Below are positions 18,117 to 26,121 of a stretch of DNA of 26,121 nt, piece after piece (position 1 is the first letter of the stretch; every line of letters starts with the position of its first letter). The stretch covers positions 1 to 26,121 of the forward strand of contig MFYT01000098.1 of assembly GCA_001789205.1 (NCBI GenBank), given 5' to 3'. Position numbers and translations under genes: made by a program. The notes under the pieces are model-generated. The model made no database searches. It was not told the DNA's origin and saw only the letters and a program-made list of their open reading frames with translations. Source of the stretch: Candidatus Raymondbacteria bacterium RIFOXYA2_FULL_49_16 (GTDB lineage Bacteria > Fibrobacterota > OXYB2-FULL-49-7 > XYB2-FULL-49-35).

Positions 18117-20726
18117 TCATTTTTTCCGTTCAATAATTTTAACAAAGGTGATCACCACGCCCTCGATGACGTTTTCCAGGGTCCGGTAGGGCTGAATGCG
18201 CATCTGATACCATTGGCCCTCTTTTGTCAGCACTTCAGCTTCCTTGGGAACAAGTGTGTCCAGCACGGCCCGTGCATCCTGCACCAGGGAATCGTATCCA
18301 TCGAGACGGGAGACAATGTCGCTTATGGGCCGGCCGATGTCGGTCTGGATGAGGTTGATTATATGCGTTGTGGCCGGGGTGAAGCGCTGGATGCGTAGAT
18401 TGAGGTCTACAAAGAGGGTGCCGATATTGGTACCGGCCATGAGGTTGTTCATGTCGTTGTTTGAGCGCGACAGCTCCTCTATTTTTTTCTGGAGTTCATT
18501 GTTTACGGTGATCAGCTCTTCGTTGACCGACTGCAATTCTTCCTTTGAGGTTTCCATTTCCTCGTTTGTTGATTGCAGTTCTTCGTTCGAGGATTGCAGT
18601 TCCTCGTTGGTCGATTTAAGCTCTTCGTTGGCGGTTTCAAGTTCCTCAATGGTGGCCTGCAGGTACTCTCCTTTGGCCTGGACTTCCAGTTCCAGGGCAA
18701 CAAGGCGCTGGTTCTGGCCGCTTTTTTTAGCCGCCTTTAGCATGGTCCGGCCAGCCTCTTTTGCAGCTGGTTTCGCTGTTTCCTCGAAAATGACCATGAG
18801 CATGCCCTGAGAGCCTTTGGGCCCGATCACGGGCTTGACCACAAGGTTTATCAACGAGGTTTTTCCATTGGTCGCGATCCGTATGTTGTTGTGACGCGCT
18901 GGTGTGCGGCTGGAAAGGGCTTTTCGCGTTGCCGCAGCCAGTTCAGCACGCAGACCGGGTCGCGCCAATTTGAGCAGGTTCAGAGTGGCTTCGCCAGTGG
19001 CTGGCTCCAGATATTCGCCCGTATGGCCGTGGATAAACAGTACGTCCAAATTCATGTTGACAAGAACACTTGCTGGCACATATGTGTCCAGCATGGTTTG
19101 TTCAGCCAGCTGGCGATGGGTTGCGGGCTGCACCGGAATGGCTATTGGGGAGGTCTTTCCGTTTCTTGTTTCCATGCCCGGGGGCGGCAAGATGGGGATG
19201 GTTGCCGGACGGTACAGTGTGATGGTTTTGCGCGCGAATATCTTCCATTTTTTGTCCACGCTCGCGAACATGGTGGTTAATTCGCCCACGCTTTCCGAAT
19301 TCCCGAGGAAAAGATGGCCATCGGGGTTGAGGGCATAGTGGAAGAGAGGGAGCAGTTTTTTTTGGGCCTCAACGTCGAAGTAGATGAGGAGGTTGCGGCA
19401 GCTGATGAGGTCGACCTTTGAAAAGGGCGGGTCTTTGAGCACGTCCTGTTTGGCAAATACCACCAGATCGCGGATCCTTTTTCCAATGCGGTACGACGTA
19501 TTGGTACGGGTAAAGAAACGGGCGATTCGTTCCGGGGAAACATCCGCGGCAATGCTGTCGGAAAAAACGCCTGCCCGCGCTTTTTCAATGGCTTCGGCGT
19601 CGATGTCTGTGGCAAAAATCTGCGCTGGAAAATTCTGTTTTGAATTGTCCAGGTGTTCCCTGATGAGCATGGCAATGGAATAGGCTTCTTCACCCGTGGA
19701 GCAGCCAGGCACCCAGATGCGCACGCCGCCGGCCGCGGGTTTTTTCAACAGGCCCTGGATGACATTTTTTCTGAGCGACTCGAACGCTTCGGGGTCGCGG
19801 AAAAAGCTGGTGACCCCGATCAGGAGCTCTCGGAAGAGGATGTCGACCTCGGCCTTGTTTTCGCGCAGGAAACGGATGTAATCCTCGGGCCGGGAAATCT
19901 GGGTAACGGCCATGCGGCGTTCTATGCGCCGGTTGATTGTGTTGCGTTTGTAGAGTGAAAAGTCGTGGCCGGTTTGGTCGCGCAGCATTAAAAAGACCTT
20001 GTGGAGTACGTCCGAGCTGTCTGGAGATTGGGCCCGGAGTCCGGGAGCGTGGCGGTTGAACGTTCGCTGACCATAGAGTATAAGCTGTTCCGGCATCTTT
20101 TCCGGGGGCAGTACGTAGTCTGCCAAGCCCGTGGCAATGGCGTTGCGGGGCATGCCGTCGTAGGCCGCGGATTCAGGGGTCTGGACCATGGCCATACCGC
20201 CTTCGCCCTTGATTGCCTTTAGACCTGCTGATCCGTCGGTCCCTGTACCTGAAAGGACAACGCAGATTGCGCGTTCGCGCTGGTCTTGCGCCAGGGAGCG
20301 GAAGAAAAAGTCAATGGGAAGGCGCAAACCGTGCGGCGTTTCGGGCTCGAGCAGGTGGAGTTTGCCCGTATGAAACGCCATGTCCTGGTTTGGGGGGATA
20401 ATATACACGCAATTGGGCCGGACCTCCATCGCGTCTTCAACAATGGTCACGGGCATTGTGGTATATTTTTTAACCAGGTCGACAAGAATGCTTTTATGAT
20501 CAGGGTCGAGATGTTGCACCACAACAAAGGCCATGTCCATTGGTGCGCCTTGGGGAATGGCGGAAAAAAAAGACTCAATCGCGGCAAGACCCCCGGCAGA
20601 GGCGCCTATGCCCACAATGGGAAAACCCGTATTCGCCTGTTTTGTCTTTGACCCGGGTTCTGGTATGCCCGGCTTTACGATTTTTTCTGATCTGACAGGG
20701 GGGAAGCGCTGTTTCTTTTTTTTCAT
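18117..20726 (-). CDS. CheB-CheR-PAS fusion protein
   Basis: The 869-residue protein joins a CheB-type methylesterase with Ser-His-Asp residues S43 (GIGASAGG), H72 (VVVQHLDPDH) and D164 (SGTGTDGS) to a CheR-type methyltransferase containing VWVPGCSTGEEAYSIAML and ISCRNLLIYFD. A long coiled coil of seven-residue repeats follows (TNEELQSSNEELQSTNEE and related) and then a C-terminal PAS domain. There is no receiver domain on CheB. No chemoreceptor, CheA or CheW gene is nearby, so a role in kinase signalling rather than chemotaxis is likely (inference). The histidine kinase gene starts 7 bases after its stop. The Shine-Dalgarno is poor. Confidence 0.92.
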   Translation of the reverse strand: MKKKKQRFPPVRSEKIVKPGIPEPGSKTKQANTGFPIVGIGASAGGLAAIESFFSAIPQGAPMDMAFVVVQHLDPDHKSILVDLVKKYTTMPVTIVEDAMEVRPNCVYIIPPNQDMAFHTGKLHLLEPETPHGLRLPIDFFFRSLAQDQRERAICVVLSGTGTDGSAGLKAIKGEGGMAMVQTPESAAYDGMPRNAIATGLADYVLPPEKMPEQLILYGQRTFNRHAPGLRAQSPDSSDVLHKVFLMLRDQTGHDFSLYKRNTINRRIERRMAVTQISRPEDYIRFLRENKAEVDILFRELLIGVTSFFRDPEAFESLRKNVIQGLLKKPAAGGVRIWVPGCSTGEEAYSIAMLIREHLDNSKQNFPAQIFATDIDAEAIEKARAGVFSDSIAADVSPERIARFFTRTNTSYRIGKRIRDLVVFAKQDVLKDPPFSKVDLISCRNLLIYFDVEAQKKLLPLFHYALNPDGHLFLGNSESVGELTTMFASVDKKWKIFARKTITLYRPATIPILPPPGMETRNGKTSPIAIPVQPATHRQLAEQTMLDTYVPASVLVNMNLDVLFIHGHTGEYLEPATGEATLNLLKLARPGLRAELAAATRKALSSRTPARHNNIRIATNGKTSLINLVVKPVIGPKGSQGMLMVIFEETAKPAAKEAGRTMLKAAKKSGQNQRLVALELEVQAKGEYLQATIEELETANEELKSTNEELQSSNEELQSTNEEMETSKEELQSVNEELITVNNELQKKIEELSRSNNDMNNLMAGTNIGTLFVDLNLRIQRFTPATTHIINLIQTDIGRPISDIVSRLDGYDSLVQDARAVLDTLVPKEAEVLTKEGQWYQMRIQPYRTLENVIEGVVITFVKIIERKK

Positions 20727-23685: not shown

Positions 23686-24714
23686 TTACATCAGCCAACG
23701 TTTTTTCATCAAATGACGGGCCAGTGAAAGAGTGATCAATCCCACCAAAATCAGGTAGGCCCATTCCGGCCACAGCTTGGATATTCGGCCCTCTTCCAGC
23801 AGGATCGATTTTATCGGTTTATAAAACTGGTAGGAAGGCAGGATAGGGGCTACAACGGTCAATTTATGCGAAAAATCCGATAACGCGGAAGGAAGCAGGT
23901 GGGGCAAATAGAACATAACGCCTAACGTCCTTGCGCCCGCCTGGTTGCGGCATAAAAAGCCCAGCAGGATTCCGAAAGAGCTGAAGCAGAAGCCGCCGGC
24001 CGCGATAAAGGCCGCATAACCAACGAAGTTATCCGGACAGAACCCGCCCAGCAGATGGAGGAGCAGCACCGCGACGATCATTAAAAACATCCCTGAAAAC
24101 ACCTTTGCGGCAAGCCACTCCGTTTCCCGCATGGGGGTCTGCAGGAGCGCGAGGAGCAGCTTCTTTTCCTTTTCCTCGGCGACCTGCGCTGGCAGGATCA
24201 GGAAACCGACCAGCAGGACCAGCATCAGGGTCCAGGTGGGCAGGGTTTGCCTCTGGGGTCCGCCTGTCTGGAGCGGCCTGATGTCCGAGATCCAGCCGGG
24301 ATTTCTTCCTTCCGTGGCCTTTTGAAGGGCTGAAAAGACCTCCACGAGGGAAAGCGTCACCACGGATTCCTTCTTTAAAACCACCAGAACCAGGCTTTTT
24401 TCCCGGGTCTTGGAATTTAAGAGAAGGCCGTCAATTTTCCTGTCCTTTAGCGACTTGACGCCCTCCTTTTCATCGGAAACAAGGGACACTGTCAATGCTT
24501 TGCCCGCTGATTGGATGGCCTGCAGAATCACAGGATCGGCCATCTCATCCCGGACCAGCCCGATATTCAATTCTACCGGACCAATGTCCTCCCTGTCCAC
24601 CAGTTTCAGGGAGAAAAAAACGAAAAAAGGGATGAAAAAGACCAGATAAATGGTTTTATTCTTGAAGGCGATGGCCAAATCATTCAAGGTCAATGTTATG
24701 ATGTTTCTTATCAT
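23686..24714 (-). CDS. ABC-2 type transporter permease
   Basis: The 342-residue membrane protein has one N-terminal membrane segment (about 24-37), a long extracytoplasmic region (about 40-160) and five further hydrophobic segments (from TWTLMLVLLVGFLILPAQVA onward, ending WAYLILVGLITLSLARHL). EEKEKKLLLALLQTPMRETEW is the coupling segment typical of ABC-2 exporters (NatB/YhaP-like). It should pair with the ATPase encoded just upstream, with which it overlaps by 4 bases (ATGA). The substrate is unknown. Confidence 0.88.
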   Translation of the reverse strand: MIRNIITLTLNDLAIAFKNKTIYLVFFIPFFVFFSLKLVDREDIGPVELNIGLVRDEMADPVILQAIQSAGKALTVSLVSDEKEGVKSLKDRKIDGLLLNSKTREKSLVLVVLKKESVVTLSLVEVFSALQKATEGRNPGWISDIRPLQTGGPQRQTLPTWTLMLVLLVGFLILPAQVAEEKEKKLLLALLQTPMRETEWLAAKVFSGMFLMIVAVLLLHLLGGFCPDNFVGYAAFIAAGGFCFSSFGILLGFLCRNQAGARTLGVMFYLPHLLPSALSDFSHKLTVVAPILPSYQFYKPIKSILLEEGRISKLWPEWAYLILVGLITLSLARHLMKKRWLM

Positions 24715-25397
24715 GACAGGTACAGTTTTTCGTGGATTTCAGATTGAAAGTAATTGTCCGGCGGACCGTCAAAAACCAGGTATCCCTGATGCAGTACGAT
24801 GATTCGTGTCGCAAGGGTTTTTATCTCCTCCGGCCGGTGGGAGGTGAAAAGGATGGTCTTTCCCGCGGCGTGAAAGGCTTTCAGAAGCCTGTAAATTTCA
24901 TGGGTCATCTCAAAGTCCAGGCCTGAGGTGGGTTCGTCAAACAGGAGCATGGGCGGATCCGCCAGTAGCGCGCGCCCGATGCTCACCCTTTGCTTCAGCC
25001 CTTTTGACAGTAGCTGGACGTTGCAGCGCCGGAAAGGCGCGAGCCCGAATTCCTTCAGGACGTATTCCATCCGCGAAAAAGGCGTTTGAAAAAGACGGGC
25101 GAACAGCTTGAGATTGTACTCGACGGAAAAGAATTCGAAAAGATTTGGGGTTTCAGGCACAAAACCTATTTTCCGGGCTACCGCCCGCCTCTTTTCAAGC
25201 GGGAGGCCGTCCACCAGCGCCTCTCCGCCGTCAGGAAGGATCCAATTGGCCAGGATTTTCAAAAGGGTGGATTTGCCCGCACCGTTGTGCCCGATAACAG
25301 CGATCAATCCCCCTTTTTCAACCTTGAAACCGACCGGATGCAATCCTCTTTCATTATTAAAGACTTTTGTTAGATCATGAATCTCTATCCGCATCAT
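24711..25397 (-). CDS. ABC transporter ATP-binding protein
   Basis: The 228-residue ATPase has Walker A GHNGAGKST (about 35-43), signature LSKGLKQR, Walker B MLLFDEPTSGLD and the H-loop FTSH. The Q-loop position reads FVPETPNLF, with Glu in place of Gln, as in many ABC-2 drug/lipid exporter ATPases. It powers the permease encoded next. Its ATG overlaps the stop of the second microprotein by 4 bases (ATGA). It has no strong Shine-Dalgarno of its own, so translation probably depends on coupling. Confidence 0.92.
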   Translation of the reverse strand: MMRIEIHDLTKVFNNERGLHPVGFKVEKGGLIAVIGHNGAGKSTLLKILANWILPDGGEALVDGLPLEKRRAVARKIGFVPETPNLFEFFSVEYNLKLFARLFQTPFSRMEYVLKEFGLAPFRRCNVQLLSKGLKQRVSIGRALLADPPMLLFDEPTSGLDFEMTHEIYRLLKAFHAAGKTILFTSHRPEEIKTLATRIIVLHQGYLVFDGPPDNYFQSEIHEKLYLS

Positions 25398-25468
25398 GTC
25401 CGGCGATAAAAAAAGATAATCACCAGCACCAGCGCCACCACGACCATGACTTCGATGACGAAATCCAT
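25394..25468 (-). CDS. Membrane microprotein B, 24 residues
   Basis: ATG 25468 is preceded by AGGGGGG at 3 bases. The frame encodes 24 residues, starting MDFVIEV and ending FFYRRT, with a hydrophobic span of about 18 residues. The stop overlaps the ABC ATPase start by 4 bases, the coupling pattern used between real genes. It resembles microprotein A in length, single-span design and basic-Thr C-terminus. Function is unknown; a small transporter subunit or stabiliser is inference. Confidence 0.7.
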   Translation of the reverse strand: MDFVIEVMVVVALVLVIIFFYRRT

Positions 25469-25481
25469 ATACCCCCCTAGA

Positions 25482-25556
25482 TTATGTTCTTTGCACCAAA
25501 TAGACAATGGCCAGAACCAAAACGACCACCAGCAGAACACTGGCTAACCATCCCAT
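25482..25556 (-). CDS. Membrane microprotein A, 24 residues
   Basis: ATG 25556 has a perfect AGGAGG 5 bases upstream, the strongest ribosome binding site in the window. The frame encodes 24 residues starting MGWLASV and ending YLVQRT, with one hydrophobic span rich in Val and Leu. It is 13 bases before microprotein B and 30 bases after the FISUMP-type gene. It has the same length as B and a similar C-terminal Arg-Thr. Function is unknown. Confidence 0.72.
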   Translation of the reverse strand: MGWLASVLLVVVLVLAIVYLVQRT

Positions 25557-25586
25557 AGTATCCTCCTTTTTTATTTTAAGAGCCAC

Positions 25587-26121
25587 TCAATTCTTAAGCA
25601 ACCTGACCGAGAAACCGCAACTCTTATAGTTGCTATTCCACCAAAGTTTGCCGGAGTCGTAGTAGAGGTTACGGGCGACTGCACCCGAATCATCGACTGT
25701 CTCAGTAGCACTCCACCAGTTACCGCTGCCGCCAAAGTCGAAGGCGCCATTGGTACCACGAGAACCGCCCGGAAGGGCCAAAAAACCACTCGTGTTATTC
25801 TTTGTCAATTTGTTGCCGACTGTCCCGGTGGCTAATCCAGCTTGTGTAAACCAATCCGTCTTCGCCGACAGGGATTTGGCTATCTTGTTACCAGTTGTTG
25901 TTCCATCCCAATTATACCCGTTGGCAATCAGGTAATTCTCCAGGGTGACCCACTCCGCGTCCGTCGGCACATGCCAGCCTGCGGGGGCGAGCTTCTTGGT
26001 ATCGACGGCATACCAATTATAAAGCGCGCCGAATTTTCTGATACTGTCTGCATTGACCATATTGTTGAAATAGCAGTAGCCAGGGGCAGCAAGATTCACC
26101 CATGCGGTAGTAAGCTTTATA
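25587..26121 (-). CDS. FISUMP-type protein (Fibrobacter succinogenes major paralogous domain), 5' end outside window
   Basis: The frame is open to the window edge and ends at TGA 25587-25589. It carries the TIGR02145-type domain: TTAWVNLAAPGYCYFNN, FGALYNWYAVDTKKLAPAGW, HVPTDAEWVTLENYLIANGY, then GFLALPGGSRG, WWSATE and final GFSVRLLKN. These are typically secreted lipoproteins or surface proteins abundant in Fibrobacterota and some Bacteroidota. Function is unknown. A GTG at 26099 is inside the conserved domain and is not the true start. The N-terminus, including any signal peptide, is outside the window. Confidence 0.9.
   Translation of the reverse strand, partial: IKLTTAWVNLAAPGYCYFNNMVNADSIRKFGALYNWYAVDTKKLAPAGWHVPTDAEWVTLENYLIANGYNWDGTTTGNKIAKSLSAKTDWFTQAGLATGTVGNKLTKNNTSGFLALPGGSRGTNGAFDFGGSGNWWSATETVDDSGAVARNLYYDSGKLWWNSNYKSCGFSVRLLKN

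Follow-up and report, generated by a model that had tools for sequence, protein, structure and literature searches.

Membrane microproteins of 18-24 residues accompany one lineage of ABC-2 type exporters across five bacterial phyla

Introduction

KdpF, CydX/CydY/CydZ and CcoQ cross the membrane once, and their genes lie in the operon of a large membrane complex, features that they share with the microproteins analysed here. To our knowledge, microproteins of the KdpF/CydX/CcoQ type do not routinely occur as tandem copies, and no type V ABC exporter other than CcmABCD is known to us to have a microprotein partner. Peptides also figure as cargo of ABC exporters: Pmt exports phenol-soluble modulins, and multi-peptide leaderless bacteriocins have an ABC exporter of their own. 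In the case of the oxidase subunit, cydX moves with cydAB and very few orphans are found (PMC4325964). CcmD is a small membrane protein with an N-out/C-in topology that is tied to the CcmABC haem exporter (PMC10903887), while small membrane proteins that bind a transporter and modulate it have been shown for AcrZ (on AcrB) and proposed for LucB (on mycobacterial Mce1) (PMC9882608, PMC10710835). Of comparable size to the microproteins, the IbsC toxin has 19 residues (PMC8309996).

Here we analyse two tandem, unannotated microprotein frames that lead an ABC exporter operon in Candidatus Raymondbacteria bacterium RIFOXYA2_FULL_49_16 (Fibrobacterota; contig MFYT01000098.1); the whole stretch of 26,121 nucleotides that was analysed is referred to as the window. 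The family accompanies the export pump in all relatives that were examined, which span five phyla, so its members probably serve the pump as small components or as regulators.

Results

Two microprotein frames lead an ABC exporter operon

The four genes of the operon lie on the minus strand of the window in the order frame 1, frame 2, ATPase, permease. Microprotein 1 (MGWLASVLLVVVLVLAIVYLVQRT; 24 residues plus stop, 25482..25556) scores 48 bits with the family profile and is preceded by a Shine-Dalgarno site, AGGAGG (25562..25567), 5 nt 5' of its ATG. Microprotein 2 (MDFVIEVMVVVALVLVIIFFYRRT; 24 residues plus stop, 25394..25468) likewise matches the profile and has the site AGGGGGG (25472..25478) 3 nt 5' of its ATG. 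Each consists of one hydrophobic span with an Arg-Thr end, so that the initial annotation of this DNA, which had described two such tandem frames with their ribosome binding sites, is borne out by the sequence. The ATPase (228 residues, 24711..25397; PF00005, E 4e-29) and the permease (342 residues, 23686..24714; PF12698, E 8e-32) are, by their domains and overlapping genes, an ABC-2 type (type V) exporter. The predicted structure of the permease, which is of modest confidence (pLDDT 70), matches ABCH, ABCG and NosY chains, which are type V exporters, as well as ABCA chains. Some type V exporters move lipids, which does not identify the substrate here.

From frame 2 onwards the genes overlap by 4 nt: the TGA of frame 2 shares an ATGA (25397..25394) with the ATPase start, as had been pointed out earlier, and the ATPase and permease genes overlap in the same manner. 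We saw no Shine-Dalgarno site belonging to the ATPase gene of the window, so its translation is probably coupled there to that of microprotein 2.

Neither microprotein matched a family when the Pfam and NCBIfam libraries were scanned, Rfam returned zero families on either strand of window positions 24900-26121 up to E 1, and our literature search found no description of the family. The microproteins thus form an undescribed family, with no matching model in Pfam, NCBIfam or Rfam as scanned.

The frames are conserved coding sequences for probable membrane-spanning peptides

The initial annotation had held the paired design to be hard to obtain by chance. When the 728-nt upstream stretch was resampled from a first-order Markov model (n=5,000), one frame with a Shine-Dalgarno site arose twice and two frames never did, which upholds that view. 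Across 562 kb of strand-bases, the same DNA serving for family and control frames, a Shine-Dalgarno site precedes 32 of 33 family copies as against 0 of 8 unrelated V/I/L-rich micro-ORFs of that size. Closely related microprotein pairs differ by many synonymous and few amino-acid changes (15 synonymous versus 4 non-synonymous differences over 20 codons between loci L070 and L069), and over all pairs the synonymous differences are far more frequent (mean pS 0.72, pN 0.32), the outcome of a comparison between relatives that had been proposed as a check. Chance or artefact as the origin of the frames is ruled out by conservation, Shine-Dalgarno sites and resampling together; judged by their sequences, both 24-codon frames are real and under selection as proteins.

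The family shares a core consisting of Leu8, Val10-Val11, Leu13-Val14 and Ile17, with Leu8 and Leu13 each conserved at 96%, Val14 at 85%, and Val10, Val11, Val14 and Ile17 at 75-85%. Members fall into three length classes (18, about 21, and 24 residues or C-terminally extended), which reflect shortening of a single, almost gap-free core at either end; Arg23 is present in every member long enough to have it and does not vary within the C-terminally extended class. The core is almost uncharged and the hydrophobic moment is very low (0.01-0.23 in 16 listed members), so the microproteins are predicted to span the membrane and are not amphipathic. When conservation was tested for a periodicity that would mark a single helix face, the result was not significant (p 0.18). 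We also considered ordered, differentiated paralogues, which are hinted at in L069/L063 and weak in the other two pairs, and did not retain them.

Microproteins are present at every exporter locus read

Genome contigs were scanned with the permease pair, which yielded orthologues in Desulfobacterota, Nitrospirota, Gallionella, Zeta- and Gammaproteobacteria and Bdellovibrio. Permease orthologues at 30 loci (Fibrobacterota, Desulfobacterota, Nitrospirota, Pseudomonadota and Bdellovibrionota) are 49-72% identical, and an orthologous ATPase was found at 23/23 loci; L050 and L064 were left out since their contigs end before the upstream region can be read. Microproteins of 18-24 residues, in 1-3 copies each, accompany the orthologous exporter at 30/30 loci in these five phyla. 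The frames thus stand ahead of homologous operons, and the outcome that the initial annotation had named as fatal to its proposal, frames lost where the ATPase start is kept, did not occur.

At 28 loci the micro-ORFs closely precede the ATPase gene; at two, L063 and L069, they are 6-11 kb upstream, and each of these loci has two copies adjoining a DUF5670-like frame. At L062, an extra frame separates the microproteins from the ABC genes. Gaps between frame and ATPase gene are elsewhere roughly 16-700 nt, reaching kilobases in those two loci, and the ATGA overlap was absent from every other locus read. The proposed coupling therefore holds for the window, to which the overlap is peculiar, and is not conserved. 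No fusion of a microprotein to the permease or ATPase was seen among the loci, and no plasmid record carrying the permease was found. Two further loci show departures of their own: in Candidatus Manganitrophus GAC4 (L067 6001-7456) the permease is split over two frames, which may reflect a sequencing error, while both microproteins are intact, and in Seongchinamella unica an additional microprotein, MAGVLGLVVLVLLIVFLVNRV (L068 10903-10968), is encoded downstream of the ABC genes at a distance of about 5 kb.

Within the Fibrobacterota sample (167 genomes), a close permease (68% identical) is present in a single further genome, where three 24-codon frames follow one another at the corresponding position (MDFVIGVLVVVVLVFGIIYLAHRA, MDFLYGALVLVVVVLVIVFLANRV and MGFVYGILGVVVLVLLIVFLAHRV). 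In both Fibrobacterota genomes the microproteins begin about 30 nt past the stop codon of a gene whose product is apparently secreted (window 25587-26120, with a Fib_succ_major domain and cut by the contig end; L011 1-432), with which they may share a transcript.

Microproteins and exporter co-occur and appear to move together

A search of 562 genomes of Desulfobacterota and Nitrospirota found the exporter in 11, with a microprotein in 11/11. Among the 345 Desulfobacterota genomes the exporter occurs in 3, and the profile matched those 3 and one PA2779-family protein. The 217 Nitrospirota genomes include 8 with the exporter, of which 5 have free-standing profile matches; in the remaining 3, frames of 18 residues were identified by reading. 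For eight exporter genomes outside the profile its detection is 5/8, the other 3 holding 18-aa frames found by reading; the chance that 5 hits would all fall in those 8 genomes is about 1e-10 by our own arithmetic, which ignores relatedness. Among the 551 genomes that lack the exporter, zero free-standing copies were found with the profile, an absence that is strong but not absolute because the profile misses some 18-residue members. Where exporter genomes were searched whole, the copies were at the exporter locus in 20/20, the single off-locus match being a weak one in genome G183.

Mapped onto a tree of 30 permeases, the microprotein length classes need 7 changes, compared with a mean of 14.3 for shuffled labels (0/200 as low). 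Zetaproteobacteria exporters group with Gallionella, and those of Bdellovibrio, which sit on a long branch, group with Nitrospirota. Since exporters of such distant hosts group together and carry the matching microprotein class in each case, the exporter appears to move horizontally as a unit with its microprotein.

Stress-gene neighbourhoods

Genes for CsbD, BON-domain or DUF5670 proteins are nearby at 14 loci, and PAS kinases at several, which suggests that the exporter loci lie in a stress-response island; no CsbD, BON or DUF5670 gene stands beside the operon in the window. These genes recur around L048-L058, L063 and L068-L070. A CheB-CheR-PAS fusion protein is encoded at window 18117-20726, and L055 and L056 have similar genes close to the exporter. 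Sigma-54-like boxes lie ahead of the microproteins in L055-L057, whereas in L058 they lie ahead of the adjoining CsbD gene; sigma-54 control as a general feature was rejected, convincing boxes being confined to L055-L058, with none in the window.

Alternative roles for the microproteins

These neighbourhoods bear on the alternative that survives best, namely that the microproteins are separate stress-induced, YohP-like membrane microproteins that are merely co-regulated with the exporter and have the membrane or a different partner as their target. The 14 loci with stress genes, the upstream boxes in some of them, and the copies of L063 and L069, which sit beside a DUF5670-like frame and kilobases from the ABC genes, would fit this idea. 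We nevertheless regard it as unlikely: CsbD, BON and DUF5670 genes vary among loci while the microproteins never part from the exporter, the profile found no free-standing copy in the 551 exporter-less genomes, and microprotein type follows the permease tree.

Somewhat more doubtful is that the microproteins are substrates, i.e., hydrophobic peptides that the exporter takes from the inner membrane or secretes. Tandem leaderless peptides of 18-24 residues in variable copy number adjoin an ABC-2 exporter, which speaks for this role, and the ATPase matches TIGR03740, a model of lantibiotic protection, below threshold, although many ABC models give similar matches. Yet the peptides are transmembrane, with the low moments and nearly charge-free core given above, and lack the amphipathic helix that marks the phenol-soluble modulins of Pmt (16 listed members, set against a description of that kind). 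No precursor or processing motif is present, and the core is conserved position by position across phyla, when secreted peptides usually diverge fast.

We give little credence to a type I toxin-antitoxin role like that of Ibs, in which the neighbouring ABC genes would confer immunity or be there fortuitously. The Ibs toxins of ibs/sib loci are, like the microproteins, hydrophobic and about 19 residues long, and composition and tandem copies are similar too; against this role stand the consistent linkage of the microproteins to one exporter across phyla and the Shine-Dalgarno sites of 32/33 copies. No antisense-RNA family was detected at the locus by Rfam on either strand, a scan that an undescribed antisense RNA would escape. 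Finally, it is very improbable that the microproteins are leader peptides (upstream ORFs) whose translation, rather than product, controls the ATPase gene through couplings such as the ATGA. The overlap of frame 2 with an ATPase start that has no evident Shine-Dalgarno site speaks for it, but this overlap is unique to the window, the distance elsewhere is hundreds of bases to kilobases, selection acts on the residues, and copies are repeated.

Discussion

On balance, we consider it slightly on the probable side that the microproteins are an unrecognised single-span family that forms a functional unit with one ABC-2 (type V) exporter lineage, as accessory subunit or modulator. An accessory microprotein is a conserved single-span protein encoded and co-inherited with its complex, and this is what the 30/30 loci, the 562 genomes and the permease tree display. 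More tentative, and a little short of probable in our estimation, is that these 18-24-residue transmembrane peptides are an obligate multi-copy component of the lineage that travels between phyla. The initial annotation had suggested duplicated subunits; the subunit part stands as the best-fitting interpretation, while duplication is not a requirement, as loci have 1, 2 or 3 copies.

As an accessory subunit or modulator, one to three copies of the microprotein would be made, each inserted in the inner membrane with the N-terminus outside and, because it is basic, the C-terminus inside. Leu8, Val10, Leu13, Val14 and Ile17 may pack against the permease dimer or against other microprotein copies, and the microproteins could thereby serve the assembly, stability or activity of the exporter, as KdpF, CydX and CcmD do for Kdp, cytochrome bd and the haem exporter, respectively. 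Given that many loci lie in neighbourhoods with CsbD, BON, DUF5670 and PAS kinase genes, it is probable that the unit serves to export or flip some component of the envelope when the cell is under stress. Several observations count against a subunit: the microproteins of L063 and L069 are 6-11 kb from the ABC genes and those of L062 lie beyond an intervening frame; copy number varies, which a subunit of fixed stoichiometry need not show; the helix-face test gave p 0.18; and no fusion to permease or ATPase was seen.

Frames of 18-24 codons are below most annotation cut-offs, and models in the family libraries scanned do not match them, but operon context, Shine-Dalgarno sites and position-specific conservation can together recover genes of this size. 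If they are indeed an obligate multi-copy component, the microproteins would rank with the smallest subunits dedicated to a transporter, and other type V ABC exporters may likewise have microprotein subunits that were overlooked. The family also offers a testable case of a minimal subunit for such exporters.

Outside the exporter operons, there is a likeness with PA2779-family (NF033919) proteins, in nine profile-found members of which (e.g. GFVIALLVVVILVILILQMT) the C-terminal transmembrane segment matches the microprotein pattern beyond composition (0-1/5000 shuffles). Such proteins are 120-170 aa long and encoded beside a C39-type peptidase gene, not beside the microprotein-linked exporter; they combine a signal peptide, a domain of about 80 residues and the C-terminal segment, whereas the microproteins have no domain and no NF033919 match. 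The profile hits are suggestive, yet 16 PA2779 tails sampled without the profile match poorly to moderately, and homology is not claimed. The resemblance was noted in L109, L115, L117-L122 and L124, with C39-type peptidase and TPR neighbours where these were read, and in some PA2779 proteins a GG or GA just before the transmembrane segment might be a C39-type peptidase cleavage site.

Turning to small partners of known complexes, the scans that we ran revealed no sequence relationship of the microproteins to KdpF, CydX, CcmD, AcrZ or LucB. LucB has four transmembrane helices and AcrZ, with 49 residues, is on an RND pump, unlike the 18-24-residue peptides of a type V ABC operon. Membership in CcmABCD was rejected, as neither a match of the microproteins to CcmD nor one of the permease to CcmB was obtained with Pfam and NCBIfam; CcmD is also longer, and what is shared is a small membrane protein that goes with an ABC exporter. 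Proteins of the KdpF/CydX kind are longer (37 residues in E. coli CydX) and have a P-type ATPase or oxidases as partners, but the co-transfer pattern of CydX is the same as that of the microproteins.
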